In this document: positions 2,686-21,227 of the stretch, in pieces
How positions within the stretch are numbered: position 1 is the first letter of the stretch
Layout of the letters: every line of letters begins with the position of its first letter
Source: a virus
Strand: one strand, 5' to 3'
IMG/VR virus record: IMGVR_UViG_3300032296_000978
Location: 1-25,231 of that record
DNA: 25,231 nt
Program-made: the position numbers and the translations under genes
Notes under the pieces: generated by a model
Databases searched by the model: none
Told to the model about the DNA's origin: nothing
The model's input: only the letters and a program-made list of their open reading frames with translations

Positions 2686-2695
2686 GGTACATTTA
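2666..2695 (+). promoter_or_regulatory. Promoter with the GTACATTT motif, plus strand
   Basis: GTACATTT occupies 2687-2694. Read as a Bacteroidota -7 box it is TACATTTA (2688-2695), with TTG at 2666-2668 exactly 19 bases upstream, inside the terminator loop. The start codon at 2703 is 8 bases after the motif. The same 8-mer precedes four late genes on the other strand. Confidence 0.65.
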
Positions 2696-2702
2696 TACTT
2701 AG

Positions 2703-3704
2703 ATGAACAAAACTCTACTCGTAGAAAAATACATCCGCAAATACTGCGACGAAAACAACCAATTAACCATTCCAAAACAAACCCTTGCTCGTTTGATTTA
2801 CAACGAAAACCACGGGCTTTTCAGCGGAATAGATGCGGTGCGAAACATTGTGAGGTCATTGACTGGCTCAAATAAAACCAACACCAAGGCACTGCCGGGA
2901 TTTTCGCAACCCAGCACAATCGAAGACGGTCTCCGCAAATACAAACTATTCACCAAGCTGCCCGAACCAAAAGAAAAAATCCTTAAACCCGGAGCGTGGC
3001 TGGTGATGTCGGATATTCACTTTCCTGAACATGACCCGACAGCCATTGCCGCATCTTTACAACTGGCAAAAAATGCAAATGTTGACGGGATTGTGTTGAA
3101 TGGCGACATAATCGATATGTACGAAGTGAGCCGGTTTATTAAGGAAGTAGGCAGGCCGTCAATCAAAACCGAACTTGAAATGACACGAAGTTTTTTTCAG
3201 TTACTCAGGGACGAATTTGGGGATATTCCTATCGTTTACAAGTTCGGCAATCACGAAGAAAGAATGCGGAACTACCTGCTCACAAACGCCCGTGCGATTG
3301 CTGAATTAGACGGCATCGGACTTGAAGACCAGTTGCAACTCAAAAAATTTGGTATTGATGTGGTTTACCGGGAACGGATAAGAGCCGGGAAACTTGACAT
3401 ATTGCACGGCCACGAATTGCAGAAGGGAATTTCTGCCCCGGTTAACCCAGCACGGGGGGCGTTTTTAAGGGCTAAAAGTTCACTGCTAATAGGACACCAC
3501 CACCAAACCAGCACACATCACGAAAACAACCTTAAACGCGACCAGATTGTATGTTATTCAATCGGCTGCCATTGTACTTTGACACCGGAATATAACCCGT
3601 TCGGTTATACCCGGCAAAATCACGGGGGCGCAATCGTTGAAATTTTAAAGGGTGGCAATTTCAAAGTGAACAATTACAGAATAATCAACGGGAGTGTGTA
3701 CTAA
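2703..3704 (+). CDS. Calcineurin-like metallophosphoesterase
   Basis: The 333-residue protein carries the complete metal-binding motif set of the calcineurin-like phosphoesterase fold: SDIHFPEH (Asp104, His106), GDIID (Asp135, Asp138), FGNHEER (Asn183, His184), HGHE (His235, His237) and IGHHH (His265-His267). Together these bind two metal ions and hydrolyse phosphodiester or phosphomonoester bonds. The substrate cannot be read from sequence. Residues 1-90 form an additional N-terminal region with a possible helix-turn-helix (IPKQTLARLIYNENHG), so the protein may bind DNA or RNA. It starts its own transcription unit behind a terminator and promoter. Its stop overlaps the next start (TAATG). 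Family assignment is strong. A role in nucleotide recycling, DNA processing or counter-defence remains open. Confidence 0.87.
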   Translation: MNKTLLVEKYIRKYCDENNQLTIPKQTLARLIYNENHGLFSGIDAVRNIVRSLTGSNKTNTKALPGFSQPSTIEDGLRKYKLFTKLPEPKEKILKPGAWLVMSDIHFPEHDPTAIAASLQLAKNANVDGIVLNGDIIDMYEVSRFIKEVGRPSIKTELEMTRSFFQLLRDEFGDIPIVYKFGNHEERMRNYLLTNARAIAELDGIGLEDQLQLKKFGIDVVYRERIRAGKLDILHGHELQKGISAPVNPARGAFLRAKSSLLIGHHHQTSTHHENNLKRDQIVCYSIGCHCTLTPEYNPFGYTRQNHGGAIVEILKGGNFKVNNYRIINGSVY

Positions 3705-3967
3705 TGTTGACAAGGCCATTGATAATTGATGTACTGGCAGCGGACGAAGAAGGGGAACAACTCGAAGATTTGGGGTTGCAACCCGATTTATGGGAAGCCC
3801 CAAGTTTTCAAATTGCCATTTGGAATGTTGAGTATGTTATGGAAGATATCCGGAGCACCAAGTCCACGCCCTTAACAATGATTTGCACTGGCAGCGAAGA
3901 ATGGCTAACTTTGATGACCACAAAACAAGTCAATGAAAAAATCATGCAATGCATGAAATTATATTAG
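3704..3967 (+). CDS. Small acidic hypothetical protein
   Basis: An 87-residue acidic protein whose ATG overlaps the stop of the phosphoesterase gene by one base, so it is probably translated by re-initiation. The sequence suggests a mixed alpha/beta fold (PLIIDVLAA, FQIAIWNVEYVME, PLTMICTGSEEWLTL) with a C-terminal helix (KQVNEKIMQCMKL). There is no signal peptide or membrane segment. No family is recognised. Its TAG stop overlaps the first base of the tRNA-like gene that follows, so both may be cut from one transcript. The close coupling suggests a functional link to the phosphoesterase, but this is inference. Confidence 0.65.
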   Translation: MLTRPLIIDVLAADEEGEQLEDLGLQPDLWEAPSFQIAIWNVEYVMEDIRSTKSTPLTMICTGSEEWLTLMTTKQVNEKIMQCMKLY

Positions 3968-4082
3968 CCCGGTTAGTGTAAATTGGTAACATCACCCTTC
4001 CGGATAACTTGTCAGTAGGTTGCAAGGCTCGACGCGAAAAACAAAAAGAGGGTGGCTGTGAGTTCGAGTCTCACACCGGGAG
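3967..4082 (+). tRNA. tRNA-like gene with an oversized anticodon region
   Basis: The two ends form a tRNA. Acceptor strands GCCCGGT (3967-3973) and ACCGGGA (4075-4081) give six pairs plus a G-A mismatch at the first position. The D-stem is GTGT/ACAT with a GG-containing loop. The T-arm is perfect: GTGAG, TTCGAGT, CTCAC at 4058-4074. The anticodon stem CACCCT/AGGGTG (3993-3998 and 4049-4054) encloses about 50 bases instead of 7, and no standard anticodon with U33 can be assigned confidently. CCA is not encoded. It may carry a small intron-like insert, be a decayed tRNA, or be a tRNA-mimic RNA. It lies between convergent transcripts. Amino-acid identity is not called. Confidence 0.6.
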
Positions 4083-4706
4083 CTAAACTTCAAACAGCGT
4101 GTAATCTATGCGCTGCCCGTTTGAGAATAGTTTGCATACTTCAAACCACATTGCATCTTGCACCACATGACACCCGGCAGACCAGCCGTTGATCGTGGCA
4201 GCAACACCACCGCGATGCAGGTTTATTCCAAACAATCCAAATTGCTTTATGTGGCTATCAATTAAGCGGTTTTTATTGCCGTCCCGGTAGATTGTTATTG
4301 GCAGAACCTGCATAAAGTAAGGGGCGTTCAGCCACAAAAACTTCCAATTTGCAGCCGTTACAAATTGATGCGCCCCGATTATTTGCTGTTCACACGCTAT
4401 GGCAGTGCCCGTAATTCCACCAACGGTCAAAGGATTGAACACATAGTAATCCCCTGCGGTTGTTGAGCAAGGCAAAGCCATAACGGGAAGCCCTGATTTA
4501 TACACCGCCACGAAGTCATCAAAGGTATTTGTGAGGTTTTTGTCCGTTCTTATCCACACCAGCCCGTCTTTTGGCATTAACCACTTGCGTTTTTCTAAAT
4601 TCGTCTTTACATATTGATGCAAAGCGGTCAATGTACGCTGCCCTACTATGCCGTCAACAACTAATTGCGCCCCGTTGGCATTCAAAATCTCTTGTAACTT
4701 TCTCAT
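4083..4706 (-). CDS. Endolysin, L,D-transpeptidase/YkuD-like
   Basis: Residues 1-33 resemble half of a peptidoglycan-binding repeat (LQEILNANGAQLVVDGIVG, TLTALHQYV). The rest ends in the catalytic block FGINLHRGG, then NGWSAGCHVV about a dozen residues later: His164, Ser176, Gly178 and the nucleophile Cys179 fit the His...S-x-G-C pattern of YkuD-type enzymes. RDGNKNRLID (141-150) looks like a calcium-binding loop, a feature I associate with this lysin type. The enzyme would act on peptidoglycan cross-links in the periplasm. There is no signal peptide, so export should depend on the holin-like proteins encoded just upstream. It is the last gene of the late unit, and its start overlaps the spanin-like gene (ATGA). 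Confidence 0.75.
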   Translation of the reverse strand: MRKLQEILNANGAQLVVDGIVGQRTLTALHQYVKTNLEKRKWLMPKDGLVWIRTDKNLTNTFDDFVAVYKSGLPVMALPCSTTAGDYYVFNPLTVGGITGTAIACEQQIIGAHQFVTAANWKFLWLNAPYFMQVLPITIYRDGNKNRLIDSHIKQFGLFGINLHRGGVAATINGWSAGCHVVQDAMWFEVCKLFSNGQRIDYTLFEV

Positions 4707-5242
4707 TTTGCGATGACTCCTATCAACACCCCGGCCAAAAATGACCAGTTACGCTGTCTTTTAACCTTTGTATTAACCCTTTTCAGGTATGAATTTTCAT
4801 TCGATAGGGCTTTTATACCCGATTGTGTACGATTTATGATACTATCTTTCGCACTTATTGCCACTTTTTGCGACAATATAACCTTGTCTTGCTTTTCGAT
4901 TATTTCGCAGTCCAATTCCACAATCCTGAAAAGGCTGTCATTCTCTTGCAGCAGGTAAGTTATTTTGGCAGTATCTTCGAGAGCACCCCAAAAAGTATCA
5001 TTTAAACGCCTTTCGCGCCACTTTGTAACCTCAATAATACTTACAGACCTTTTTTGTTTTAAAGTGTCTGTAATGCGCTGTAATGAATCCGCAACTTTTA
5101 ACGCCCTGCCAGCAACCTGCGCAAAGCTGTCGATTTTCCTATCCGCTAAAACGCCCTGTCCGTACATTTCGACTTTGGTGAAGATGCGGATCACCGCCCA
5201 AGTGAGTATAAGTAGCCCGGCAACGATTACAAAAACCCTCAT
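4703..5242 (-). CDS. Spanin-like (Rz-type) membrane coiled-coil protein
   Basis: The 179-residue product has an N-terminal transmembrane segment (VFVIVAGLLILTWAVIRIF, residues 3-21) and a long charged, heptad-like region (roughly 35-165, including TYLLQENDSLFRIVELDCEI). The C-terminal hydrophobic stretch is WSFLAGVLIGVIAK. Anchor plus periplasmic coiled coil is the layout of inner-membrane spanins, which disrupt the outer membrane at lysis. A second hydrophobic end would fit a two-ended, unimolecular arrangement, but no lipobox is present. It sits between a holin-like gene and the lysin, both joined by ATGA overlaps, which supports a lysis role. Similar proteins in other phages are annotated only as hypothetical. 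Function is inferred from architecture and context. Confidence 0.62.
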   Translation of the reverse strand: MRVFVIVAGLLILTWAVIRIFTKVEMYGQGVLADRKIDSFAQVAGRALKVADSLQRITDTLKQKRSVSIIEVTKWRERRLNDTFWGALEDTAKITYLLQENDSLFRIVELDCEIIEKQDKVILSQKVAISAKDSIINRTQSGIKALSNENSYLKRVNTKVKRQRNWSFLAGVLIGVIAK

Positions 5243-5418
5243 TCTTCTGCAAAAAAGTTGGTTATGAATTTACCGACCGCCCCACATATTCCCGATGCCA
5301 ACATCAACTTTGGATTGTCGATATTTAGCCCGGCAATGAATAACGACATAGCCGCAATGCTATCGCCAAGCACCCTAAACCTTTTGGGAGTAGGTTCAAA
5401 ATAGTTTTTCAGTTTCAT
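5239..5418 (-). CDS. Holin-like small membrane protein
   Basis: I chose the ATG at 5418 over the TTG at 5451, because the extra codons encode a polar stretch and GGGCAG precedes the ATG at Shine-Dalgarno distance. The 59-residue product opens with a basic segment (MKLKNYFEPTPKRFRVLG), then two hydrophobic segments (SIAAMSLFIAGL and LMLASGICGAVGKFITNFF) and a short acidic tail (AEE). Two membrane segments with charged ends is a class II holin layout. Proteins with the pattern NYF.PTPK...GD followed by GKF.TNFF occur next to lysis genes in Bacteroidota phages. Its end overlaps the spanin-like gene (ATGA). It would form the membrane lesion releasing the leaderless lysin. Confidence 0.65.
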   Translation of the reverse strand: MKLKNYFEPTPKRFRVLGDSIAAMSLFIAGLNIDNPKLMLASGICGAVGKFITNFFAEE

Positions 5419-5520
5419 CTGCCCTGCCCTCTGTATTTTTTGGTTCTGCAATGTTTGTTTTCAGACTTCGTGTGCCGCCCTAACTTTGGTTTCGGTTTCG
5501 GCTGCCACTTTACTATCTCT

Positions 5521-5682
5521 TTACTTTTTGCCATTTTTCAATTTTTGATATATGCCTATGCACGACAAAATAAATGCTGCCGTAAATGATAGGTATTGCA
5601 TCAATGGTAGAAGTTTTGATGCAAATCCAGCCAGCCATAACAGCCAACTGCCTATGATGCTGTTATCCAACTGGTCTTTCAT
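5521..5682 (-). CDS. 53-residue membrane protein, possible second holin or antiholin
   Basis: The minus strand encodes ATG AAA GAC CAG TTG at 5682 and stops at TAA (5523-5521). The product starts MKDQLDNSIIGSWLLWLAG, continues FASKLLPLMQYLSFTAAF and ends IYQKLKNGKK. It has two hydrophobic segments (about residues 9-20 and 24-44) and a basic tail. It overlaps the upstream gene by 20 bases and fills an otherwise empty gap of about 200 bases in the lysis cassette. The positive C-terminus and two membrane helices suit a holin or antiholin partner of the protein at 5239-5418. No family is recognised, and the size makes the call moderate. The remaining 100 bases to the next gene contain nothing I can identify. 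Confidence 0.6.
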   Translation of the reverse strand: MKDQLDNSIIGSWLLWLAGFASKLLPLMQYLSFTAAFILSCIGIYQKLKNGKK

Positions 5683-5896
5683 CTTTCGGTTTGTATTCAA
5701 TTCGTGTCATGCCAGCCCAAATTTGCGGGTAATCTTTTTTCAAAAACTGAAATTCGGCCATGCAATATTCTTCATCGCTTACTATCCAATTACCTTCCGC
5801 ATCTTGCACGGGATTTAACCGACTGCCCTCAGTGCCTTGCAGTTGCCTTACATCGTCAATATTAATCCCTTCCGGAAATTTCCAAACTAAAATCAT
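5663..5896 (-). CDS. Small acidic hypothetical protein
   Basis: A 77-residue protein whose ATG overlaps the stop of the upstream fibre-like gene by four bases. It starts with a short strand (MILVWKFP), then an acidic middle with a DAEGNWIVSDEEY turn, and ends in charged residues (EYKPKDERPVG). There is no membrane segment. It may be an accessory or chaperone for the adjacent fibre protein: small genes at the 3' side of fibre genes often encode assembly proteins. There is no motif to prove this. The family is not recognised. Confidence 0.6.
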   Translation of the reverse strand: MILVWKFPEGINIDDVRQLQGTEGSRLNPVQDAEGNWIVSDEEYCMAEFQFLKKDYPQIWAGMTRIEYKPKDERPVG

Positions 5897-6699: not shown

Positions 6700-7061
6700 T
6701 ATGAAATCCGGTTAACATACCCAACAATGTTTATATTGTTGGCACTGCCACCAAAAGCCCTTATTGTGCGACCACTTGCCCCATCACCCGTCAAAACACA
6801 ACCGGGTAAAACAAGACTCAATCCTGATTTTGCAGGTATGCCAACAATTATTCGGTCGTCTGCATTTGTTGTGCCACCCATTTCAATAGTCAATTCGATT
6901 GAGGTAGCACTTGTATTGGTTGCATACAGCCATACTTCGTCAATAACTCCGCTACTTGCCTGAGTAGTGTGAATAGTTGTGCCGGGTGTTCCCGATGCAG
7001 CCACTTTTATCGGCCTTCCGCCCGTGCTGCCTGATAGTAATATTTTTGTGAATGTTGCCAT
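6699..7061 (-). CDS. Small beta-rich virion protein
   Basis: A 120-residue protein made almost entirely of Gly, Ser, Thr and short hydrophobic strands (FTKILLSGS, IDEVWLYATNTSATSIELTIEMGG, GLSLVLPGCVLTGDG, INIVGYVNRIS). This is the pattern of a single beta-sandwich domain such as capsid-decoration or tail-knob proteins. Similar small proteins occur in fibre regions of many siphoviruses. The start ATG and the stop of the upstream fibre gene share one base (TAATG), as do its stop and the next start, so all three are translated as a string. The exact site on the particle cannot be told from sequence. Confidence 0.62.
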   Translation of the reverse strand: MATFTKILLSGSTGGRPIKVAASGTPGTTIHTTQASSGVIDEVWLYATNTSATSIELTIEMGGTTNADDRIIVGIPAKSGLSLVLPGCVLTGDGASGRTIRAFGGSANNINIVGYVNRIS

Positions 7062-7822
7062 TATGAGAATACTTGAATTTCTAATATGTCGGCTGCGCCT
7101 GAAATGGTCAAATCACCACTTCCAACAACGCTATTGCCATTAATAGTTTTAATGTTTGTTCCTGATACCAGCGTGTCTTGTTTCGCGTCCACAGCCGTTT
7201 TAACAGCCTTTTGCGATGGATAGAATGTATCGCTGTTATCGGCTAACGATGTCTTCTTATTTGCCACATTTTCGGGCGTAAATCCCAAAGCCGTGATGAC
7301 ATTCGTAATGTAGCCCTGAGATGTTACATAAGCCTCAGTCGCATAGCCGCTTAATGCAGTTGTAATTTGACTTGCCACCGCTGCGGTTGTGGTAAATGTC
7401 GCCATCGCCCAGTCATAAACAGCCTTTACGCTTGGGTATTTTGTATTGCTTGCCTGATCCGTTGTAACGCTTGTAGACTTATTCGCCACATTCTCAGGGG
7501 TAAACCCGAGTGCTGTCGTTACATCGCCACTGCTTATGGTCAAGGTGTAGAACTCCAATCCACTTGCATCTGCTTTAACCCTTACAAGTTTGCCGCCCTG
7601 CCCGGTGTAACTTTGCGGCACATCGGTAAGGTCAGTAAACAAGGTCGCACCGCCACCGCTACCGCCCCAGTATTGCAGACTATTCCACGCCCCTACCCCG
7701 TTACCGATTTTAAACTTTCGAGTGTCGGTTTCAGCACCAAATTCACCTTCGGCCAATACTGGGTTTTGTGCTGTCCATTGTGCGGCTGTTCCGCGCCTTA
7801 ATTTTATAGTTATGTAACTCAC
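7061..7822 (-). CDS. Tail fibre-like protein with Mtd_N-type N-terminus
   Basis: Residues 3-50 (IKLRRGTAAQW, LAEGEFGAETDTRKFKIGNG) match the N-terminal domain of phage major tropism determinants and related fibres, a virion-attachment module. The rest is fibre-like: an LTDVPQSYTG-type repeat near 64-73, two copies of an ALGFTPENVANK unit (101-138 and 175-212), and a C-terminal INGNSVVGSGDLTIS motif frequent in collagen-free fibres. The start is GTG, overlapping the previous stop (GTGA). There is no enzymatic domain. No reverse transcriptase or variable/template repeat pair is visible, so this is not shown to be a diversity-generating target. Likely role: structural fibre or collar linking receptor-binding proteins to the tail. 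Confidence 0.75.
   Translation of the reverse strand: MSYITIKLRRGTAAQWTAQNPVLAEGEFGAETDTRKFKIGNGVGAWNSLQYWGGSGGGATLFTDLTDVPQSYTGQGGKLVRVKADASGLEFYTLTISSGDVTTALGFTPENVANKSTSVTTDQASNTKYPSVKAVYDWAMATFTTTAAVASQITTALSGYATEAYVTSQGYITNVITALGFTPENVANKKTSLADNSDTFYPSQKAVKTAVDAKQDTLVSGTNIKTINGNSVVGSGDLTISGAADILEIQVFS
7187..7522 (-). repeat. Two imperfect coding repeats in the fibre gene
   Basis: Codons 101-138 (7409-7522) and 175-212 (7187-7300) encode near-copies: ALGFTPENVANK, then TS, a short polar linker, and YPS.KAV. The spacing is 74 codons. The DNA is similar but not identical, so the duplication is old. Such repeats let fibres change length by recombination. Confidence 0.75.
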
Positions 7823-8358
7823 GCTATGCCTCCGTTAATTATGTTTGAAAAAGAACTATTATAATACCCCCCGTCAATGACCTGCAAGCCCGATAAATCC
7901 AATCCCGGGAAGTTGTAATCATTGGAAGGAACATCGCAAAAATCACGGGTGTTTGATGCCGTGAATGTGAACACACTTGCAACCCCTGCCACGATGTCTG
8001 TTTTGTCGTCGTAAAAAGGTGTTGCGCTGTCTTCTAACTTCCACATTCCCGAACTATCGTTGCGGTATATATACCTGAGTGTCGCGTAAATGTCCAATAA
8101 CACTTGGTGCATATCGCTAATCCGTTCAACTGCATCGGTGAAGTCTTCGCGGTGTCTATCCATAACGGCCAACGCAAACCTATAAACAACCCTATCCCCG
8201 TCTATTTGGCTGCCGTCGGGGAATATCCGCATAAGTGGGTACAATGTGTCGCCAGTTGTGGCTACATTGTAATCCAAGTTGGTAACGACTGCCTTAATTT
8301 GCCGATGATTTTCCCCGGCTGTTGTAAGGGCGTTTAGCAGTTGGTTTATCGTTACCAT
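7819..8358 (-). CDS. Head-tail joining or tail-terminator candidate
   Basis: The 179-residue protein has an alpha/beta N-terminal part with YPLMRIFPDGSQIDGDRVVYRFALAVMDRHRED (about 41-73) and a helical DAVERISDMHQVLLDIYATLR. A beta-rich C-terminal half includes FTFTASNTRDFCDVPSNDY. The arrangement of strand, charged loop, strand and long helix is seen in tail-terminator and tail-completion proteins (lambda gpU-like fold), and the family is frequent near connector genes of Bacteroidota phages. Its position after the portal and connector-like genes and before the fibre genes supports a neck or tail-end role. The start is ATG; the 51-base gap upstream holds nothing recognisable. Function is inferred. 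Confidence 0.55.
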   Translation of the reverse strand: MVTINQLLNALTTAGENHRQIKAVVTNLDYNVATTGDTLYPLMRIFPDGSQIDGDRVVYRFALAVMDRHREDFTDAVERISDMHQVLLDIYATLRYIYRNDSSGMWKLEDSATPFYDDKTDIVAGVASVFTFTASNTRDFCDVPSNDYNFPGLDLSGLQVIDGGYYNSSFSNIINGGIA

Positions 8359-8409
8359 GTTTTTGAAAATATATTAAAGCTTTTTGTTCGTTTTTCTCGC
8401 GTACTTTAC

Positions 8410-8964: not shown

Positions 8965-10864
8965 TGTTGCGCCTCCTTACATATACCTGCTTCCACTCAT
9001 GCCTACAATGCGGCAAGTGTATTGCTGGTTCGCTATCGGGTACGGTATACCAACCTCCCCTGCGCCTCCATACATCATAGCCCAAAATCGCAGTCATTTG
9101 GTCAATATCCTGACGGGTGTATAACCTATTCATCTTTTCCATTTCAATACAAAAGGGGCGTGATTGTGTTTTAAGTGGTTTTGCCTCGGGGCTTACATTA
9201 TATTTATACCTCAACTCTATTCGGGGTGTGCCTCCGCTGTCGCTGATGTCGTTTATCCCGATGTCGGTAATTTTTATGGCTGTGTTTGTCCATTCGATTT
9301 TACCAGCGTCTTGCAGCACACGAAGTATTTTGATAACCTCATCTTCGGCTATGCGTGAAGCGGTCGAAATCTCTTTTATGCTTGCCTTTGGGTTATCATT
9401 AACCGCCCCCATGATTGCAAGTTCCTTTTCACTCAGTTCAGCAAAGTTGAATTTCACCATTTCAAACTGACTTTCGGGCTGTCCAAATTGAGCAAATACT
9501 TTTAGGTCGTCATCATGCCACTTTTCAAAATCATTGAACTTGAACGCTGCCTCTGTTGGTGGTGCTGCTGCTTGTAACACATCTCCACCGGGTATAGGTG
9601 GCAACCCTGCCAACGCCCTTTTTTCGTTTATGGTCATGTTTGACAACACATTGTTTGCCACAAGTGGCGAAAGGCTGTTGATGCTTTCAATAACACGCTG
9701 TGCGCTGTCAACAACTTTCTGCTCTGCCTCACCCAAACCAAGCGCAATACGGGCTTCATCTACTGATATAACTCCGGTGTTAGCCAGTGCCACATAATCA
9801 AGGCCGATAAACTCGCTGTCCTGAGTGCTGATTTGTACGCCCGGATAAACAAAGTCGCAAACATATTCAAGCGAAGCGTCAAGTCTTGCTTGTCGGCTGT
9901 TCACATACGATTTATGGAACATCTCGTAAGCCTCAATCAGTTCGTTTCTCGCGCCAAGTTGCCCGTCTGATTTCTGCCCCATTAAGATAGGAGGGAAGTT
10001 GTGAGCAGTGAAAATCTCTGCGTTAACCGTGTCATTGAGTTGCAGGAATTGTTTGTCAATATCGGACGGCTGTATGTGGTCAACCTCTGCCGGTCTTTCG
10101 TTGCCGTCATTGAATTGAATAATTAAGCCACCAGCATTGTCCGTTCCGGTGGTTCTATCCTTAAACTTCCGTTCAAACTTACGAGCCTGCTCAGGTGTAG
10201 GTTCACCCTTAAACAACTGAACCAGCGTGCCGTTGGCAAACCCGTTGCGGATGTTGTTATTGTGGAAGTTGGCTATCTCAACATCAATTTCGATGTATTG
10301 CAACCCGTGAATGTAAGGTGGTAATGGGTAAACACCCAGCCCTGCATCGTATTCCCGGTAATAATAAAGCTGAACGCTGAACGGCTCGGCTGTGTCCGGG
10401 TTAAATCGGTCGTATGTCCTTACTTCATCTGCCTTGTATTTTTGCCAGTCTTGCAAATACAAATAAGTCCGGTGGTCATTCGTGCGGATTTTGCTAAAAT
10501 CTACATGGTAAAACTTAGCAATCTGCCCCAACTTGTTGTAATGCACCTCAAAGCAATAGCCGTTGAATATCTCATAATCCAATGCCAACTTTGCTTTGAA
10601 GTCATGCAGCCCTTCGTATGGGTTCACAAAATCAATTAACTTCAAAGCAGCCTCATTGCCTTCGATTACACACTCGCTGCCAGCGGTAAACCTTGCTTTT
10701 TGCTTTACGATAGCCCCGTGTTTTGGGCTGCGCTTGTAGAATTCGAGTAATGTATCAGGGAAGTCGTTCTTTTCCCCATAGGTAACGAAGCCTTTTTGTT
10801 TCTGCTCCTTAAATTTGGGCAGCTTAGACTCTGCAAATGTTATCTTTAATAGTTCAAAACTCAT
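8957..10864 (-). CDS. Portal protein with C-terminal winged-helix and Cys/His domain
   Basis: Residues 1-400 show portal features: an N-terminal KGFVTYGEKNDFPDTLLEFYKRSPKHGAIVKQKA region, LALDYEIFNGYCF (93-105), the AEIFTAHNFPPILMG block (282-296), and GARNELIEAYEMFHKSYV, the long stem helix (304-321). Portals form the 12-subunit ring through which DNA enters and leaves the head. Beyond the usual length come two extra parts. Residues 474-545 read like a winged helix (ELAIMGAVNDNPKASIKEIS, then DEVIKILRVLQDAGKIEW). Residues 549-632 form a domain with SRPFCIEM (Cys572), YTRQDIDQM, GGWY and HLPHCRHEW (His616, His619, Cys620, His622), perhaps binding a metal. The start overlaps the previous stop (ATGA). 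Confidence 0.88.
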   Translation of the reverse strand: MSFELLKITFAESKLPKFKEQKQKGFVTYGEKNDFPDTLLEFYKRSPKHGAIVKQKARFTAGSECVIEGNEAALKLIDFVNPYEGLHDFKAKLALDYEIFNGYCFEVHYNKLGQIAKFYHVDFSKIRTNDHRTYLYLQDWQKYKADEVRTYDRFNPDTAEPFSVQLYYYREYDAGLGVYPLPPYIHGLQYIEIDVEIANFHNNNIRNGFANGTLVQLFKGEPTPEQARKFERKFKDRTTGTDNAGGLIIQFNDGNERPAEVDHIQPSDIDKQFLQLNDTVNAEIFTAHNFPPILMGQKSDGQLGARNELIEAYEMFHKSYVNSRQARLDASLEYVCDFVYPGVQISTQDSEFIGLDYVALANTGVISVDEARIALGLGEAEQKVVDSAQRVIESINSLSPLVANNVLSNMTINEKRALAGLPPIPGGDVLQAAAPPTEAAFKFNDFEKWHDDDLKVFAQFGQPESQFEMVKFNFAELSEKELAIMGAVNDNPKASIKEISTASRIAEDEVIKILRVLQDAGKIEWTNTAIKITDIGINDISDSGGTPRIELRYKYNVSPEAKPLKTQSRPFCIEMEKMNRLYTRQDIDQMTAILGYDVWRRRGGWYTVPDSEPAIHLPHCRHEWKQVYVRRRNNG

Positions 10865-11238
10865 CCGATGTGGTGCTGTTTTATGGTTGTGTTGACCTCA
10901 TGGTCATTGAAATTCGTGTGTGATGTGCTTACTTCGGCTATACCCCGGTCGATTTCTTCGTTTGCCAAATCAGGATCTAAATTTGTGGGGCTGGTTTGTG
11001 CAAACAGCCTCCAATAATGTGTGCCAATAGGCAGGGTTTTGGCCGCTGTGCTGCCCTCGGTAAATGTGAACTCCTGATACCTTGCCGGGTGTGTGCTGCT
11101 GTCGGCCACAATAAATGCCTTCTGATCATAGCTTACCTGCGAGTCAAAAACCAACAAATAAACGGGGGCGGATATTGTTACCTTTTCCCGACCAGTTATG
11201 ATTACTGAATTGCTTTGACCCTTAGTAATGTAGAGCAT
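10861..11238 (-). CDS. Hypothetical structural protein upstream of the portal
   Basis: The start taken is the ATG at 11238; the TTG at 11241 is adjacent but less likely. The 125-residue product is beta-rich (YITKGQSNSVIITG, APVYLLVFD, GTHYWRLFAQT), consistent with a small beta-sandwich. It has an acidic, histidine-rich tail (SHTNFNDHEVNTTIKQHH). It is the first gene of a transcription unit that begins with a terminator, a GTACATTT promoter and this start codon 7 bases later, and continues through the portal with an ATGA overlap. It may be a head-tail or decoration protein. The family is not recognised and the function is unknown. Confidence 0.62.
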   Translation of the reverse strand: MLYITKGQSNSVIITGREKVTISAPVYLLVFDSQVSYDQKAFIVADSSTHPARYQEFTFTEGSTAAKTLPIGTHYWRLFAQTSPTNLDPDLANEEIDRGIAEVSTSHTNFNDHEVNTTIKQHHIG

Positions 11239-11245
11239 CAACCCT

Positions 11246-11253
11246 AAATGTAC
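11246..11253 (-). promoter_or_regulatory. GTACATTT promoter motif before the portal unit
   Basis: On the minus strand the sequence reads GGGTACATTTAGGGTTG then ATG. It directly follows a strong terminator, and the start codon is 7 bases beyond the motif. A TTG lies 17 bases upstream of the TA, slightly short for a -33 element. Confidence 0.6.
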
Positions 11254-11270
11254 CCATTTTCAAAGTGTGC

Positions 11271-11301
11271 AAAAAAAAGGGGCGACCGAAGCCACCCCCT
11301 T
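11271..11301 (-). terminator. Intrinsic terminator after the tail-tube gene
   Basis: On the minus strand AAGGGG pairs with CCCCTT and the helix continues imperfectly to a TTCG tetraloop, followed by eight T residues (11278-11271). This is a textbook rho-independent terminator, and it ends the capsid/tail-tube unit. Confidence 0.88.
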
Positions 11302-11322
11302 GCAAATACTATGAACAAATAC

Positions 11323-11835: not shown

Positions 11836-11849
11836 TTTTCTACTTTTTT

Positions 11850-11884
11850 TAAATTAAAAGGGGGTAGGGTTGTTCCCCACCCCC
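11850..11884 (-). terminator. Strong hairpin terminator/attenuator after the major capsid gene
   Basis: On the minus strand GGGGGTGGGG pairs with CCCTACCCCC over ten positions (one G-T wobble) around the loop AACAA, followed by TTTTAATTT. The next gene has no recognised promoter of its own, so this may be a partial terminator that sets the capsid-to-tube ratio. Confidence 0.82.
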
Positions 11885-11909: not shown

Positions 11910-12875
11910 TTATGGAAGTTTGAAATAAACTACTTCATCAGGACGGGCAATCTGAGTTCCAAGCTTGAATGAAGCGCGGAACCTTACCTCATTGTTGTCC
12001 TGTGAGAACCACATGGTGTATTCTTCGGTCTCATCCATCATGTCTGTACCAATAAAGAAGTTAGACCAGCGACCTGCAACAATTTTGTTAGTTCCATTCA
12101 TACCATGCAGACCGTAGATTTTAATTCCGCTGATAGGATCAACAATTTCCATTGCGGTAGCTTCGGCAGCATCGTAGTGGAACAAGTTGGCAGACACTAA
12201 CCATGCACGGTAAGTGCGGTAGGTATCTGTACCCATTGCGATAAACACATCAGGCTTACCAAGAACTCCGGCAGGGATAAGGCTGTAAATCTTTGCAATC
12301 GCTTCGTCAATGTTTGAAGAAGTCAAAGAAGTCAACTGAGTGTAACCACCGCCAGTTGTGGGGTTACCTTCGATAGGGTCGCCAGCACCGCCAAATCCGA
12401 GGTCGCCAAGAATGGTAAGGAAGCCGTCATACAAGCCGCTGTTTCCACTTCCGCCAGTAGTGTCACCCTGCCATATAGCAGTTTCGTTGGCTTCGGCAAT
12501 CTTCATTGCTTTTTCGTTGCCAATCTGCTCTTGAAACACGCCAAGGTCAACGGGTGAACCAGCAGCCAAACCGATTTGAGTGTACTTTGTTTCCAAAGTC
12601 TTAGGGCAAAGGGTTTCTTCAACCTTTACTTTACCCACGGTCAGGGTTCTTTTGCTGATTGTGGTTGTACCTGATGCAGTGTAACCGCAAGCATCGGTCT
12701 GAAAATAAACATCGGAGTCAAGCAAAGGCAGGATTTCTGCTGACTTAATTCCGGGAACAACTTGTCCAGCACCCTGCAACAAAGATGCAGTTTTACCGCT
12801 GAACATTGATTTTACGAGTAGGTCGGTTTTTACCTCTTTGGTGTAGTCGGTAAGACCTGAAACAACAAATGCCAT
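11910..12875 (-). CDS. Major capsid protein (HK97-fold candidate)
   Basis: The 321-residue product has the composition and length of a major capsid protein: an N-terminal segment SGLTDYTKEVKTDLLVKS, a region with KVKVEETLCPKTLETKYTQ (82-100), EQIGNEKAMKIAEANETAIWQGD (116-138), a Gly-rich loop, then GKPDVFIAMGTDTYRTYRAWLVS (201-223) and MWFSQDNNEVRFRASFKLGTQIA near the end. The last part resembles the closing P-domain strands of HK97-type capsids. It directly follows a scaffold-like gene and an XkdF-type protease, the normal neighbours of a capsid gene. A very strong hairpin lies just downstream. No lysine-asparagine crosslink pair can be judged by eye. Confidence 0.82.
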   Translation of the reverse strand: MAFVVSGLTDYTKEVKTDLLVKSMFSGKTASLLQGAGQVVPGIKSAEILPLLDSDVYFQTDACGYTASGTTTISKRTLTVGKVKVEETLCPKTLETKYTQIGLAAGSPVDLGVFQEQIGNEKAMKIAEANETAIWQGDTTGGSGNSGLYDGFLTILGDLGFGGAGDPIEGNPTTGGGYTQLTSLTSSNIDEAIAKIYSLIPAGVLGKPDVFIAMGTDTYRTYRAWLVSANLFHYDAAEATAMEIVDPISGIKIYGLHGMNGTNKIVAGRWSNFFIGTDMMDETEEYTMWFSQDNNEVRFRASFKLGTQIARPDEVVYFKLP

Positions 12876-12881
12876 TTTATT

Positions 12882-13439: not shown

Positions 13440-13444
13440 TTTCT

Positions 13445-14470
13445 TTAAATATTATTGTTGTTAAATTGGTGCAAAATTTTACTTAGTTCAGATGCCATTG
13501 CCCTGAGTTCGGCAGCAACACTGCCCTCATATTCGACATTGAAAAGCCCTTCCACTGAAAAGCCCTTCCATTCCCCTGCCTTTACTTTTTCCCATACTTC
13601 TTCATTGTCCACTAAATAGGTAACGAACATTGAGCCGTCCTCGGCATCTTCAAAACCAACGGGCGGCATTATACCCCTTGCCCGGTCAATGAAGTACATC
13701 TCAATCATATACACCCCCTCATTCACGGGTGTGGCATGGTCGGTGTTGACTGCATTATACATGGCTTTGCGTGCCATTTTCTTTGCTATCGTCCAAATGG
13801 TTTCGGCATCGAATACGACATAATACTCACCTCTTGCATCGTCGAACCGATAAATTGGTTTGTTTGCCAGCATTGCCGGGCCAGTGATTATCCGCTTTTC
13901 TTCGGACTGAATAGAAAACTTTTGTTTGTCGATTTGGTTTAACTTACGCTGCGCCCACTCAATACCTTCATCACCACCCCAAGCCAGCCACATAAGCCTT
14001 CCACAACCGTCGCCTAATTCCTTGTCGCTGTTCTGCCTATGCCTTTCAAACGCTGCCATTCGTGCAATGGTGTCGCGGCTTATGGATTCACCATTGGCCA
14101 GTTGGTTTGCTCTTATTTTGCCAACATCAGTGCCGCAGTCGCCCCAGCCGTTTTCTTCTGCCCAACGAAGAGCAACCTTTGCATTTTCTTTGGCCGCCTC
14201 GGGATAGTCGCTGTAACTTTCAAACTTTTGTCTGCCAGCCCATTTGTCATAACATACAGCAGCCGCTTGGTCTTGTTCCATTCCTTCGCCTATCATGTAC
14301 GGAATGCAACGCCCGATAAATTCATCTTCGCTTTCTTTTGCGCCCGGCTCAACAAATTCCTGAAACAAGAGGAAGTCTTTTTTTATAGCTGGTTTGTCAA
14401 CAAGGCTCACGAACTCAACGCCCGTGTCGTCATCCTCATTGACTACTATTTTGTACAATGGTAACTCCAT
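13445..14470 (-). CDS. XkdF-like prohead serine protease with inserted domain
   Basis: The protein begins LPLYKIVVNEDDDTGVEFVSLVDKPAI, as in XkdF-like phage proteases. The catalytic part is near the C-terminus: NTDHATPVNEGVYMIEMYFID (His245) and GEWKGFSVEGLF (Ser305), the His and Ser blocks of this family. Between them and the N-terminus is a long insert (about 43-182). Its first piece, EFIGRCIPYMIGEGMEQDQAA, and second piece, with KIRANQLANGESISRDTIAR and GCGRLMWLAWGG, recur in Bacteroidota phage head proteins. The function of the insert is unknown. The protease should process scaffold and capsid during prohead maturation. It starts a transcription unit with a GTACATTT motif 6 bases upstream and lies beside scaffold and capsid genes. 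Confidence 0.8.
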   Translation of the reverse strand: MELPLYKIVVNEDDDTGVEFVSLVDKPAIKKDFLLFQEFVEPGAKESEDEFIGRCIPYMIGEGMEQDQAAAVCYDKWAGRQKFESYSDYPEAAKENAKVALRWAEENGWGDCGTDVGKIRANQLANGESISRDTIARMAAFERHRQNSDKELGDGCGRLMWLAWGGDEGIEWAQRKLNQIDKQKFSIQSEEKRIITGPAMLANKPIYRFDDARGEYYVVFDAETIWTIAKKMARKAMYNAVNTDHATPVNEGVYMIEMYFIDRARGIMPPVGFEDAEDGSMFVTYLVDNEEVWEKVKAGEWKGFSVEGLFNVEYEGSVAAELRAMASELSKILHQFNNNNI

Positions 14471-14476
14471 GCCCTT

Positions 14477-14484
14477 AAATGTAC
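14477..14484 (-). promoter_or_regulatory. GTACATTT promoter motif before the head unit
   Basis: Minus strand: AAGTACATTTAAGGGC, then ATG 6 bases after the motif. The motif lies just beyond the tape-measure stop codon (14490-14488). No TTG at -33 spacing is seen, so the motif may rely on a phage or alternative factor. Confidence 0.6.
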
Positions 14485-14487
14485 TTA

Positions 14488-16650: not shown

Positions 16651-16651
16651 T

Positions 16652-19390
16652 TTATTTTTTACTGATTACATACCAAGAAGTGCCGTCGCAAACGACCTGA
16701 ACACATTCATAGTGATTTTGAATTATATAATTTGCACCCCCGTCGATTGTTTCATCTCCACTGGGTTCTATTGTCAACTGATGCGCCCCAGTGTTCTTAT
16801 ACACATAGTAAGCCTTGCCCGTTGCCGTTGCTGCCGCAGGTAGGTTTAGCGTGGTGTTTGCGGTCAACTCCATAATGTAAATGTCCTTATACAAATCTGC
16901 CGTTACACTCGTTGCCGTTGTCGTTGCTATCCGGTTTGTGCTGAAATTTAACTGAGTCATTGAATGACCTTGCAGCCATACCTCACTATCTACAACCGGG
17001 TTTGCTGGGGCTTCACCTATGACAATCGCATCGTTTCCAATGAATGTAACTCCGCTGGTGGCAAATGCCGCATTCCGCAGCCCTAAGTTCGTGATTGCAT
17101 TGCCTACGCCTATGCCGTCCCCTACCGTGTTATACTCGCCTATGCTTACGCCTTTACTTTGAATGACCTTGCCGTTGGTTCTGCCACCACCGGGATTGTA
17201 TTCCGTTTCTTCGCCCGTACCTTGTTCACCGCCACCGCCTACGCTGCCCGTGGTTGCCGTGAATGTTTGTCCAGTTTTTAAGAAAAGAAACTCACAAATG
17301 TTTACCGAGGGGTTTATCGGGTCATAATCTTCTACCTTGTTCAGTCTGAAATAATTGCCGTCGAAGAAATACAAGTCCCGGAATGACAATTTTTCCATAT
17401 CTGCCGGGGTAAGGTGAAAATGACCGCGAACTATTTTGCTATCCTTATCCGTAATCTCCTGAATGTACTTTGACCAGTAGGCGTTGTAGAGGTTGTTATT
17501 AGTTACGGGTGTTTTGCCGGGCAGCTCGATAAATCGAGGCAACCCGAAATTTATATCGGTATTGGATTGCAATGGGGTGTCCAAATGACCCATAAAGGGG
17601 TAATTGGTTTTTGTCGTTGTTGTTGTTGTCGTTGTGGCAGTTGCTTTTCCGTAGTGAATAGTGTATGTTTTACAAGACAGATATTTGTATTGTAAAATTC
17701 TGAGTTTTCCGGCCTTGCCGTCTTGATTGTCGGTTGAGTTACCCGGCAAATATTTGTCATCAAACCCCACGCTTATCATTGTAGTGGGCTGAAATCCTAT
17801 CTCAATTTTCTTTTCTTCTTTTACAAAGTCATTGTTGATTACAATTTGCCTATCCCCATAAGTGCGGTCGTAGTCTTGTTTGTATGTTTTATTATCGTCA
17901 TCGTCTCCCTCCGCGTATGTGAATAGATATTTACCTGCATCGAGTTCGCCCATGGGTGTTATTTCAAGGGGCTGCAACAAGTCCCTTTTCATTGTCCAAT
18001 CTTTGACGCTGCTTTGATAAAATTCTTCGCGTGGAAGAATAGTCAAAGTGTTCACCATTTCGGTAGGCTCAATGTACAAATTGAACATGGTAAAAATCCA
18101 TTTCAAAAACTCACGCTGCTTTGTTTCGCCTTGGAAGAAGCCGCCAAAATCTATTGTTTGATCATAGCCCCATGTCGTTGGTTTTACATCGTTGTAAATT
18201 GCACTTCCCGTATTTTGGGTATATGTCCACCCGGTCAATGGTGCTGTTAATGTGCTGTTGTAAATGTTATACAGCCTGATTTCAACTTCATCATTGCGGT
18301 TTAAATACACATTGTGAAAATCTATCGATTGAGTTATAGTGCCAACACCTGAGCCATTTGCAATACCTCTTTCACTTAGGCCGTCATAAACCAACTTGCC
18401 ATTGATATAAAGCCCGTAAATGGCAAAAAACACCTGATTTGAATTTAATCCAGAAACCGTTGCATTATTGTCAATGAAAATGTTGTAATCGCCTGAGTAT
18501 TGGCAAGTGTAAACCCCGGTCGTTGTGTTGTATTGGTTTGAAATGTCGTTTATTTCGTTGTTGAAAATCAGTTTATTCCCAGCCGTTATCGTTACATCGC
18601 TTGACCTTTCCGCATCGAATTGCCTGTCTGCCACATCATCACTGCCCAAAATAGGGTAACGGGTAGGACAAGGGACTACAAGGCGTTTAAATTGTGCTGA
18701 ATTAAAGAATGAGCCGCTGCTGTAATTGTACCCTGCGCCACTGAATATCTTATCTACTATTGTTTTGGCATACAAATAAACGGTTAAATTGTCCGTGTTT
18801 AGGCTTTTGTAATTGGCATAAGTGCCGTTGTCCATCCACCCATAAACATACCCTTCGCCCGTGGGCGCACCACCGCTAAAATTGACATATCCACTGCTGC
18901 CGTTTTTTACGATTGAAGTATCCCAAGAGTTAAAAATATTGGTGGCATTTAGCGTGTGATTGTACTCCGTGAAATTAAGGTCTGCAAGTTTGGCATCTGA
19001 AATGTTTGCAAACAAGTCGGCCAACTGCCCGTGCATAGTACACTCATATTGGATTTCGTGCCTATCCGTTACATTGATATTCAGCAGCCGTATAAAGCCC
19101 TCAATTTGCGTTACCTCGTCCACATATAGCGAGGCACTGGCTTTTAGGTTTGGATTGAAATCGGGGTTGAAATTTGTTGCTGTGGTGTTGCGGATTGACA
19201 AGTTGAGGTCAAACAAATGACTGAACAATTTATTATTCCGCTTCGTGCCGGGCAGGGTAAATGTCTTACTCCAATCTGATGACCTGCTTTCGGGTTCGCG
19301 TATGTCCGCAATAGACTTGTTTATCAATATGCCAAAATCAGTTGGCAAGTCAACTATCTGATTGCCGCAAACCAGCCTTACATTGTTCAT
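16652..19390 (-). CDS. Large tail/baseplate protein with C-terminal adhesin-like domain
   Basis: The 912-residue protein begins MNNVRLVCGNQIVDLPTDFGILINKS and continues SSDWSKTFTLPGTKRNNKLF, an N-terminal block I associate with large tail proteins of Bacteroidota phages. Residues 1-700 are beta-rich. A Gly/Glu linker (about 715-740) leads to a repeat-like C-terminus (SKGVSIGEYNTVGDGIGVG, NLPAAATATGKAYYVYKNTGAHQLTIEPSGDETIDGG), the type of domain found at fibre tips. A run of eight threonines sits near residue 590. The protein probably forms the tail tip or baseplate hub with an exposed binding region. The start overlaps the previous stop (ATGA), and one base separates its stop from the tape-measure gene. 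Confidence 0.68.
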   Translation of the reverse strand: MNNVRLVCGNQIVDLPTDFGILINKSIADIREPESRSSDWSKTFTLPGTKRNNKLFSHLFDLNLSIRNTTATNFNPDFNPNLKASASLYVDEVTQIEGFIRLLNINVTDRHEIQYECTMHGQLADLFANISDAKLADLNFTEYNHTLNATNIFNSWDTSIVKNGSSGYVNFSGGAPTGEGYVYGWMDNGTYANYKSLNTDNLTVYLYAKTIVDKIFSGAGYNYSSGSFFNSAQFKRLVVPCPTRYPILGSDDVADRQFDAERSSDVTITAGNKLIFNNEINDISNQYNTTTGVYTCQYSGDYNIFIDNNATVSGLNSNQVFFAIYGLYINGKLVYDGLSERGIANGSGVGTITQSIDFHNVYLNRNDEVEIRLYNIYNSTLTAPLTGWTYTQNTGSAIYNDVKPTTWGYDQTIDFGGFFQGETKQREFLKWIFTMFNLYIEPTEMVNTLTILPREEFYQSSVKDWTMKRDLLQPLEITPMGELDAGKYLFTYAEGDDDDNKTYKQDYDRTYGDRQIVINNDFVKEEKKIEIGFQPTTMISVGFDDKYLPGNSTDNQDGKAGKLRILQYKYLSCKTYTIHYGKATATTTTTTTTKTNYPFMGHLDTPLQSNTDINFGLPRFIELPGKTPVTNNNLYNAYWSKYIQEITDKDSKIVRGHFHLTPADMEKLSFRDLYFFDGNYFRLNKVEDYDPINPSVNICEFLFLKTGQTFTATTGSVGGGGEQGTGEETEYNPGGGRTNGKVIQSKGVSIGEYNTVGDGIGVGNAITNLGLRNAAFATSGVTFIGNDAIVIGEAPANPVVDSEVWLQGHSMTQLNFSTNRIATTTATSVTADLYKDIYIMELTANTTLNLPAAATATGKAYYVYKNTGAHQLTIEPSGDETIDGGANYIIQNHYECVQVVCDGTSWYVISKK
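17611..17636 (-). repeat. Trinucleotide repeat encoding a threonine run
   Basis: The plus strand shows GTCGTTGTTGTTGTTGTCGTTG, i.e. ACN codons on the minus strand giving eight consecutive Thr in the large tail protein. Such runs can change length by slippage. Confidence 0.8.
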
Positions 19391-20580
19391 ATATTTTGCA
19401 GGATTTCGGGTTCGGTATATTCAACTTCAATTCGCAACTGCTGAGGCCCGTCATTCAGGTCAAACACTTCCATTGAGGTGTTCGTGATGTTAACGGGTAT
19501 AGTGCCGTCCAAATAGACAATAGGGCTGCTCAGTAAATCGTCCACCCATTGCCACTCAGTTGCGTTGAGAAAGTCAGTGTTTAGGATTACTTTCCGCGTT
19601 TTGGTTGTGGAGTAGTTTGCGATGCCGTGGGCTGCGGTGTCGCGTCCGTATTGCGTCCCGGTGAACTCATAAGTATTGCGTTTTAATTGTTTGCGTTGTA
19701 CTTCATAAATGTCGCGGTTCAGCATACCACATCGCAGCGTTTCAAAGCCGCCAAGGCGATTGAGAAAATACAATACACGGGGCGTGTACTTAGAGCACTC
19801 CTCAATCACATCAAACCGATATGCCTCACTGCAAGGGTCATTCCCGATACTTTGTTTCAGCTGTATGGTATAATAGACAGTCCCAACGGGAACAACCGAA
19901 CCTGCCGTGCCACTAATTAAACTTGCCGAAGGTATTTGATTAAGATTTACAACCCCGGCTGCCATACGGAGTAAGTATTCATCCTTTGCCGATGTGTTAA
20001 AGCTTTGGTCAATTACCGATGTGGTGGCGTTACCTGCCGCATCGTAGGCTTTCACTTCCACTTCATCAACACCCGTGGCCGCACCCCTGAGAAAATAAAG
20101 GTAATCGTACTGAGTCCTTGTAACCCTGCGACTGCGAACGGTGGTTAAAAACTTTCTGCTGCTGGGTATTGCTATTTCGTAATCACTAACGGCTTCACTT
20201 TCCCATTTAGAAAATAATCCGTTCCAAGTGTACTTACCCGTGTCGCTGGTCAGGTTAAGATATTCTGCGCCTCCGTATTCTTCGCCAAACTCAACTGAGT
20301 ATGCAAGAAATGAGTTGCTGCATTTGGCCGGAATTGTCGTCGCCTGATTGAAGTCAAAGGTTACATAGTTTTGCAATATCCGGGATAGGTTAAACACCCC
20401 GTAACTGGTGCCAGTGTAAACGGGGGCTTTGAGTTTGGCAAGGATAGTGCCAGCCGCATTTTTTACAACGGCAACAAATTTAAAATTGCTTTGCCCTGAG
20501 TTTGTGCTGCTCAGTGTGTAGGTTATGTCGGAATAAACGGGGGTGATGTCGCCCGGTTCGTTTTCAATGGTAATCGCCAC
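19387..20580 (-). CDS. Tail protein (distal-tail/hub candidate)
   Basis: The GTG start at 20580 is chosen because a GTACATTT motif ends 7 bases upstream of it and the frame is closed soon after. The 397-residue product is beta-rich: ITPVYSDITYTLSSTNSGQSNFKFVAVVKNAAGTILAKLK at the N-terminus, a YGVFNLSRILQNYVTFDFN segment, and a central TTVRSRRVTRTQYDYLYFLRGA. A second conserved part around RVLYFLNRLGGFETLRCGM is followed by VILNTDFLNATEWQWVDDLLSSP. I have seen this protein type paired with the large tail protein that follows in Bacteroidota phages, where it is annotated as a tail or virion protein. A distal-tail role is an inference from size and position. Confidence 0.66.
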   Translation of the reverse strand: MAITIENEPGDITPVYSDITYTLSSTNSGQSNFKFVAVVKNAAGTILAKLKAPVYTGTSYGVFNLSRILQNYVTFDFNQATTIPAKCSNSFLAYSVEFGEEYGGAEYLNLTSDTGKYTWNGLFSKWESEAVSDYEIAIPSSRKFLTTVRSRRVTRTQYDYLYFLRGAATGVDEVEVKAYDAAGNATTSVIDQSFNTSAKDEYLLRMAAGVVNLNQIPSASLISGTAGSVVPVGTVYYTIQLKQSIGNDPCSEAYRFDVIEECSKYTPRVLYFLNRLGGFETLRCGMLNRDIYEVQRKQLKRNTYEFTGTQYGRDTAAHGIANYSTTKTRKVILNTDFLNATEWQWVDDLLSSPIVYLDGTIPVNITNTSMEVFDLNDGPQQLRIEVEYTEPEILQNI

Positions 20581-20586
20581 GCCTTA

Positions 20587-20594
20587 AAATGTAC
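20587..20594 (-). promoter_or_regulatory. GTACATTT promoter motif before the tail unit
   Basis: Minus strand: GGGTACATTTTAAGGC, then GTG at 20580, 6 bases after the motif. It lies in the 36-base gap after the tail-completion-like gene. No -33 TTG is visible. Confidence 0.58.
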
Positions 20595-20616
20595 CCGGTG
20601 GCTTTTCGGTGTAAGG

Positions 20617-21213
20617 TTAAGCAGGTTTGCGTTCTTCCAGTTTTACCGAAATCAAAATCCGCTGCCCGAAAGCGTCTGATAAATGCTGCGCGATTGCATC
20701 AATGTTTTGGGGGTTGATTACATCTTTGACAAAGAACTTCCCCTTAAATCCTTTGCGGTGAATTTTGTTTGCAATAGCCACCGCCATTGAACGCCTGCGT
20801 TCCAAAACACTTTGACCGCTTTCTTCTTTTGATTGTCGTACCTGAATACCCTTTGCGCTAATCCATTCTTCAATGTGCTGCCAAAGGAATTTGCCCCCGT
20901 CGTTGCCTTTTTTAGTCTTGCCCCTGCCTTGGTCTACGGCCTCCCAATAATCGGCCATAACAATATCAACAGACACCCCGTTTTCAATCTTCACGGTTTG
21001 GGTTAAATCTACCGAACTGCGAAGATTTTTTGTTGCTACTGCGCCCTTGTCGGTTATGGCCTTGCGTAATTCGTCTGTAATCTTTTGCGCCACCCCGGTC
21101 AATAAATCGTCAAGCAAACTGCCCGACTTTAAATCCGGGTCGTTTGCGTTCTTGCCGATGTTGGCCAACGCCCCCCGGTTGATTGCATCTAATTGCGCCT
21201 TTGATATGCTCAC
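20617..21213 (-). CDS. Tail-completion-like protein (HK97 gp10 type candidate)
   Basis: The start is GTG at 21213, supported by a GTACATTT motif 6 bases upstream and a terminator before that. The 198-residue protein has a helical N-terminal region (SLLDDLLTGVAQKITDELRKAI), a beta strand pair (SVDLTQTVKIENGVSVDIVMADYWEAVDQGRGKTK) and a helical C-terminus ending in a basic tail. The arrangement helix, strands with a Y-W-E-x-V-D-x-G-R-G motif, helix is characteristic of HK97 gp10-like tail-completion proteins, which join tail tube and head. It lies just after the tail-assembly chaperone region, which agrees. Family placement is by eye only. Confidence 0.6.
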   Translation of the reverse strand: MSISKAQLDAINRGALANIGKNANDPDLKSGSLLDDLLTGVAQKITDELRKAITDKGAVATKNLRSSVDLTQTVKIENGVSVDIVMADYWEAVDQGRGKTKKGNDGGKFLWQHIEEWISAKGIQVRQSKEESGQSVLERRRSMAVAIANKIHRKGFKGKFFVKDVINPQNIDAIAQHLSDAFGQRILISVKLEERKPA

Positions 21214-21219
21214 GCTAAT

Positions 21220-21227
21220 AAATGTAC
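21220..21227 (-). promoter_or_regulatory. GTACATTT promoter motif after the inserted cassette
   Basis: Minus strand: TTTGGTACATTTATTAGC, then GTG at 21213, 6 bases after the motif. It restarts late transcription just downstream of the terminator at 21231-21260. The core TTTGGTACATTTAT is identical to the plus-strand copy at 2684-2696. Confidence 0.62.

Follow-up and report, generated by a model that had tools for sequence, protein, structure and literature searches.

A clade-specific box beside start codons as the likely late promoter of a Bacteroidota phage lineage, probably read by a phage ECF-like sigma factor

Introduction

What is the role of an 8-mer that recurs in a phage genome at almost the same short distance from the start codons of several genes? 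The question is raised by GTACATTT, which has seven copies in the window (IMG/VR virus record IMGVR_UViG_3300032296_000978, the whole stretch of 25,231 nucleotides (nt) that was analysed); at five of the copies, 6–8 nt separate the end of the 8-mer from the start codon of a plausible gene. We consider it likely that GTACATTT is the late-promoter box of a lineage of Bacteroidota phages, that it is read by a phage sigma factor resembling the extracytoplasmic function (ECF) sigmas on the host polymerase, and that the late mRNAs are near-leaderless.

Copies of the box in the window

The coordinates and strands given for the seven copies in the initial annotation of the window were all exact, and so was the spacing to five starts, with gaps of 8 (ATG 2703), 7 (ATG 11238), 6 (ATG 14470), 6 (GTG 20580) and 6 nt (GTG 21213); an alternative TTG start at 11241 would make the second gap 4 instead of 7. 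The chance expectation had been set too low, at ∼0.8 copies: dinucleotide-preserving shuffles gave about double, a mean of 1.58, and seven copies were reached in 0 of 100 shuffles. Because the word had been picked after the fact, all 8-mers upstream of starts were ranked. The commonest in the 20 nt upstream of the 32 called starts was GTACATTT, present at 5 starts; the largest count of any 8-mer was 4 in 3000 simulated sets and 3 in 3000 random-position sets. The spacing to five starts had been said to be beyond chance, and indeed no 8-mer stood at five starts in either null (3000 runs each).

The two other copies had both been placed in coding sequence. The copy at 5162 does lie inside a gene, but antisense to it; the open reading frame (ORF) around the copy at 25103 is of unsure status.

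Two classes of box in related phages

The IMG/VR record is the window in full, yet the genome is incomplete; among its genes are those for terminase, portal, head protease, tape measure, a Rad52-like protein and metallophosphoesterase. Relatives of the terminase are plentiful in IMG/VR (at least about 600) and occur also in one Mucilaginibacter and one Flammeovirgaceae record, for which reason we take the hosts to be Bacteroidota. Among the INPHARED phage records we saw only remote terminases (<60%) and no cultured relative. Comparisons were made with a set of 22 relatives (G001–G022), several of which have matching ends and a length of ∼31–34 kb.

Upstream of starts in these relatives we observed two classes of box, H and L. 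The class-H box, TATATTTG, is separated from ATG by exactly 4 nt, is often accompanied by TTG-N19 and lies mostly upstream of early or DNA-metabolism genes. Of the 93 matches to TAHHTTTG within 60 nt upstream of called starts, 51 had a gap of exactly 4 nt to the start. A TTG lies at a spacer of exactly 19 in 11 of 24 distinct class-H sites (at 17–21 in 13), and the AT content upstream is 0.79 versus 0.53 for class L. The sigma-A promoter of Bacteroidota consists of a −33 TTG and a −7 TAnnTTTG (PMC6847099, PMC7366714); with its TAHHTTTG and TTG-N19, class H is assigned to the host sigma-A promoters on sequence grounds.

Class L is a clade-specific box upstream of structural operons and, in several clades, of the metallophosphoesterase gene. 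Such boxes precede the gene group that comes first after terL, the tail gene that follows, the head protease gene, the gene before portal and, at times, the scaffold gene. The box is GTACATTT in the window clade and [CG]TAC[CT]TTT or GTACTATT in others; more distant clades probably use GCTATTTT and TTATTTA, as judged by eye. Orthologous genes retain the position of the box while its sequence varies by clade. When boxes within 60 nt of called starts were counted, GTACATTT showed gaps of 6, 7 and 8 only (8, 3 and 2 sites), GTACTATT gaps of 6 and 8 (5 and 2 sites), and [CG]TAC[CT]TTT gaps of 6, 7 and 8 (20, 9 and 11 sites), versus 3 sites at other gaps. In an unbiased 8-mer ranking the top word was GTACATTT in the window clade, CTACTTTT in the main clade and GTACTATT in G015 and G016; TATATTTG came third in the window clade and second in the main clade, and was enriched in G015 and G016 too.

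Being a short conserved box before structural operons, with no −35 element, class L has the form of a single-box late promoter as in phiEco32 and T4. The suggestion in the initial annotation of a promoter family gains from the relatives: across diverged genomes the box keeps its position, its gaps of 6–8 nt and a place like that of the host −7 box, making the boxes strong promoter candidates.

The same annotation had taken GTACATTT for a fixed form of the host −7 box, and on this point it has to be corrected. Class-L boxes of the types GTACATTT, GTACTATT and [CG]TAC[CT]TTT usually have no trailing G and so do not fit TAHHTTTG; they have no general −33 TTG either (10 of 34 distinct sites have a TTG at spacer 17–21, 8 of these at 18, mainly at scaffold-gene orthologues), and their upstream sequence is not AT-rich. 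Nor is the box fixed, since in relatives the same genes carry CTACTTTT, GTACTATT or yet other boxes, and the true host-type class (TATATTTG-N4-ATG) occurs separately beside class L. These observations bear on the leading alternative, that the host polymerase reads the boxes through sigma-A or an alternative host sigma tolerating TACnTTT, maybe with a phage activator, the phage sigma-like protein being otherwise employed. The match of TACATTT to the TAnnTTT of the host box, at nearly the same distance from the start, is in its favour, as are variant boxes such as TAnnTTGY that are read by other sigmas in Flavobacterium psychrophilum (PMC9723704). Still, the same phages have a clean host-type class with both TTTG and the −33 TTG, and class L has neither; a conserved host sigma would not require the box to shift by clade at the same genes. 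We regard a host sigma as an unlikely reader.

Restriction-site avoidance was considered for the rarity of GTACATTT in the relatives and rejected; a changed box explains it better because the same genes carry a different box. Separately, GTAC is under-represented in relatives outside the window clade (4204 observed versus 5796 expected) and barely depleted within it (574 versus 600), a pattern as if some hosts restrict GTAC.

Features of the window around the boxes

The boxes, with neighbouring genes and hairpins, are listed below (coordinates of the window; strand in brackets).

1319..1326 (+): class-H-like box TATATTCG, 7 nt before ATG 1334 of the Rad52-like gene; TTTG at 1296-1299, spacer 19
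2655..2685 (+): terminator-like hairpin and T-run directly before the box, −14.7 kcal/mol, z −4.05; hairpin itself 2655-2679
2687..2694 (+): class-L box GTACATTT, 8 nt before ATG 2703; place kept in G001 and G003, CTACTTTT at the G008 orthologue
2703..3704 (+): metallophosphoesterase gene, predicted to be near-leaderless
5162..5169 (+): copy of GTACATTT, antisense inside a gene; probably no promoter
10861..11238 (−): small gene preceding the portal gene, behind a box
11246..11253 (−): class-L box GTACATTT, 7 nt before ATG 11238
11266..11300 (−): terminator-like hairpin with T-run, 17 nt before the box, −16.4 kcal/mol, z −2.79
13445..14470 (−): head protease (XkdF-like) gene, first in the capsid operon
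14477..14484 (−): class-L box GTACATTT, 6 nt before ATG 14470; CTACTTTT or GTACTATT at orthologues in other clades
19387..20580 (−): late (tail-region) gene behind a box
20587..20594 (−): class-L box GTACATTT, 6 nt before GTG 20580
20617..21213 (−): late gene, no function assigned, behind a box
21220..21227 (−): class-L box GTACATTT, 6 nt before GTG 21213
21228..21262 (−): terminator-like hairpin with T-rich tail directly before the box, −14.8 kcal/mol, z −3.75
22710..22717 (−): class-H host-type box TATATTTG, 4 nt before ATG 22705
25103..25110 (−): copy of GTACATTT near the contig edge, no called start adjoining, in an ORF not called by the gene caller; probably no promoter

Terminator-like hairpins precede three of the five boxes by 0–17 nt, and at these three the room for any promoter, from T-run to start codon, is ∼18–32 nt. 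The TTG at 2666, which had been proposed as a host −33 element, sits in the loop of the hairpin at 2655-2679.

The box could also be a DNA operator for a phage repressor or activator, overlapping a promoter that we do not see. GTAC is palindromic, an inverted CTAC...GTAG occurs at some sites and the box varies by clade, as a regulator site would. The box as a whole is not palindromic, though, and its distance to the start is fixed like that of a −10 box; no other conserved promoter-like element lies upstream, and two of the boxes come immediately after a terminator. The inverted repeat was itself rejected as the operator, being present at some sites of one clade only, and we consider the operator explanation very improbable. 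Least credible of all is the reading of the box as a signal for translation within the mRNA leader, for which the constant 6–8 nt to the start codon would speak, as with ribosome-binding signals: the box is carried by the first genes of late units only and not by operon-internal genes, it follows terminators, it shows no pairing with the 16S tail, and it varies by clade though the host translation system is presumably shared.

Some further features of the window may be recorded. Two host-type boxes, TATATTTG and TAAATTTG (21519-21526 and 21546-21553, minus strand), are followed ∼20 nt later by the start of a short unannotated ORF. A glycosyltransferase gene (23880-24929, minus strand) overlaps the start of the terminase gene and is retained in relatives. 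The Rfam and tRNA search of the window found none.

A probable phage ECF-like sigma factor

A divergent ECF-like sigma protein of ∼175–190 aa is encoded in every relative from G001 to G021 (the copy in G020 is cut by the contig end). The family profile compared with 16 ECF sigmas of a Bacteroidota host gave an HHalign probability of 96% (E-value 4.7e-9), with a colinear alignment over sigma2 and then sigma4 (143 columns) and no sigma3, the domain layout of an ECF sigma; controls (11 other phage families, six shuffles and one reversal) gave at most 0.7%. The NCBIfam model TIGR02937 (sigma70-ECF) was matched by 9 of 15 members, the best at 4.2e-7; the match in clade D (1.8e-6) covers residues 17–169, nearly the full length. 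Searched against BFVD, the full-length structural model retrieved predicted phage proteins at a probability of ∼1, several of them named sigma factors. The family sequences had only unrelated matches among PDB chains. In a Mucilaginibacter genome the profile found the prophage copy and none of the host ECF sigmas; the prophage of Mucilaginibacter pedocola (L088, 7840-8331) has a distant homologue with ∼25% identity.

The sigma gene follows an HNH gene, usually overlapping its end by a few bases. In G001 the sigma gene spans 12225-12761; there and in relatives its start codon is mostly TTG or GTG, and the overlap suggests translational coupling. At the start of the HNH–sigma operon TTTG stands mostly 4 nt upstream, a degenerate class-H pattern that would be in keeping with early reading by the host polymerase. 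A perfect DnaA box, TTATCCACA, was seen ∼40–50 nt upstream of this operon in G005, G006, G008–G012, G015, G016 and G018; it sits in the divergent early/late region and could mark a replication origin or a DnaA-controlled switch. A small phage protein similar to domain IV of DnaA is encoded as well (7708-8193 in G001).

Sigma type and box type

Grouping the boxes before starts by sigma clade, we counted 20 of GTACATTT in A and A2, 74 of [CG]TAC[CT]TTT in B, C and E, and 10 of GTACTATT in D, with off-diagonal counts of 0–2. At a terminase identity of 82–88%, sigma identity is 67–69% between clades with the same box (A–A2, B–C) and 32–40% where the box differs (A or A2 versus B, C or D; B or C versus D). 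Clade E has the CTACTTTT box, like B and C, despite a sigma identity of only 40–42%. In the sigma tree every multi-member box type forms one clade (99/99 for GTACATTT); in the terL tree neither the GTACATTT nor the CTACTTTT type is a single clade. Box type agrees more closely with the sigma tree than with that of the terminase. The initial annotation had allowed for a phage-modified host polymerase, and the relatives support this possibility while adding the phage sigma as the probable reader of class-L boxes.

Start geometry

In Flavobacterium the −7 box spans −12 to −5 (PMC6847099, PMC9723704). The T of the box is at −12 from ATG in all 24 distinct class-H sites, and at −13, −14 and −15 in 21, 5 and 8 of the 34 distinct class-L sites; these sites were selected by gap, and the unselected gap histogram has the same peaks. 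In both classes the T stands at about the 12 nt before the start codon that mark leaderless genes. By the published geometry a class-H mRNA would start on the A of ATG and a class-L mRNA 1–3 nt upstream of the start codon. The near-leaderless transcripts put forward in the initial annotation are likely for class L, whose box takes the position of the host −7 box with respect to the start codon.

Proposed mechanism

Taking together boxes, spacing, conservation, sigma homology and clade match, all read from sequence, we infer that the boxes initiate transcription, that the phage sigma reads them, and that there is an early–late order. Host RNA polymerase with host sigma-A would read early genes, probably including the HNH–sigma operon, from class-H promoters of the form TTG-N19-TATATTTG-N4-ATG, making fully leaderless mRNAs. 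The ECF-like two-domain phage sigma would then displace sigma-A on the host core enzyme, and the resulting holoenzyme would recognise one −10-type box, which in the window clade is GTACATTT, upstream of the structural operons and the metallophosphoesterase gene. With the box 6–8 nt upstream, late mRNAs would start ∼1–3 nt before the start codon, nearly leaderless. In other clades sigma and box would have changed jointly, the places of the box being unchanged.

Several observations weigh against this proposal. The sigma gene is known from relatives only, its region lying beyond the contig end of the window. Matches to TIGR02937 are under the curated cut-off (best 27.7 bits among the matches listed, versus 42.9), no sigma family of Pfam was matched, and window-clade members searched singly had no significant sigma match in Pfam, PHROGs or NCBIfam, so that homology in this clade rests on the profile and on sister clades. 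ECF sigmas came on top when the full-length model was compared with PDB, weakly (E-value 0.13); Foldseek with the sigma2 domain model alone (predicted local distance difference test (pLDDT) 93) gave no sigma match. We saw no −35 element that could partner the sigma4 domain. The match of sigma and box is confounded with descent because both are inherited; A and A2 are also grouped by capsid and tail genes, and common descent may be the sole cause of the match. Finally, GTG is the start codon at 12 of the 34 distinct class-L starts, which is unusual for leaderless mRNAs.

A wider claim is one on which we are evenly divided: that a single lineage (∼31–34 kb, Bacteroidota hosts) has at least three and probably five sigma/box pairs, switched jointly with gene order, box positions and terminase much the same, and that essentially all its regulated mRNAs, early and late, begin at the start codon or no more than 3 nt from it. 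Such starts are rare in the phylum: 5′ leaders <10 nt make up 3.7% in Bacteroides thetaiotaomicron (PMC7366714), and leaderless mRNAs 5.5% in F. psychrophilum (PMC9723704).

The analysis offers a predicted early–late switch and a probable switch protein for a widespread group of uncultured Bacteroidota phages. The natural series of sigma–promoter pairs is material for studying change of promoter specificity, and in practice the pairs might be used in Bacteroidota as orthogonal expression parts. The findings further suggest that the phages dispense with the 5′ leader in hosts whose mRNAs have no Shine–Dalgarno signals, so that leaderless translation can be tested directly in Bacteroidota.

Comparison with known systems

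Phages phiEco32 and 7-11 have a phage-encoded sigma with a short late promoter (TAATGTATA; TGTGATGTTATA) (PMC4331800), and this sigma has been termed ECF (PMC7881722). The likeness lies in a small ECF-type phage sigma, few copies of a short fixed box before structural genes, early genes on host-type promoters, and specificity that shifts between related phages. Unlike the phages described here, they are enterobacterial podophages with larger genomes, an unrelated box and no reported boxes abutting start codons; the sigma sequences here are, in comparison, remote and unannotated.

The late promoter of T4, TATAAATA, is read by gp55; here too a single −10 box without a −35 element serves structural genes and is read by a phage sigma on the host core. 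T4 differs in needing the sliding clamp and gp33, and its late mRNAs have leaders.

Leaderless genes in which a −10-type box lies ∼12 nt upstream of the start have been described (PMC3160421), also in Deinococcus–Thermus (PMC12340547), where Thermus phage YS40 is cited as a further case. As in these genes, the box adjoins the ORF and the leader would be very short or absent; unlike here, a host sigma reads the box in the bacterial cases, and such mRNAs are rare in Bacteroidota.

Against the Bacteroidota sigma-A promoter, class H fits fully, whereas class L, at nearly the same position relative to the start, in general has neither the G nor a −33 element, and its upstream sequence is not rich in AT. 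Judging from the literature searched, it is new that these features occur together, that they do so in this host phylum, and that the boxes form a co-varying series.

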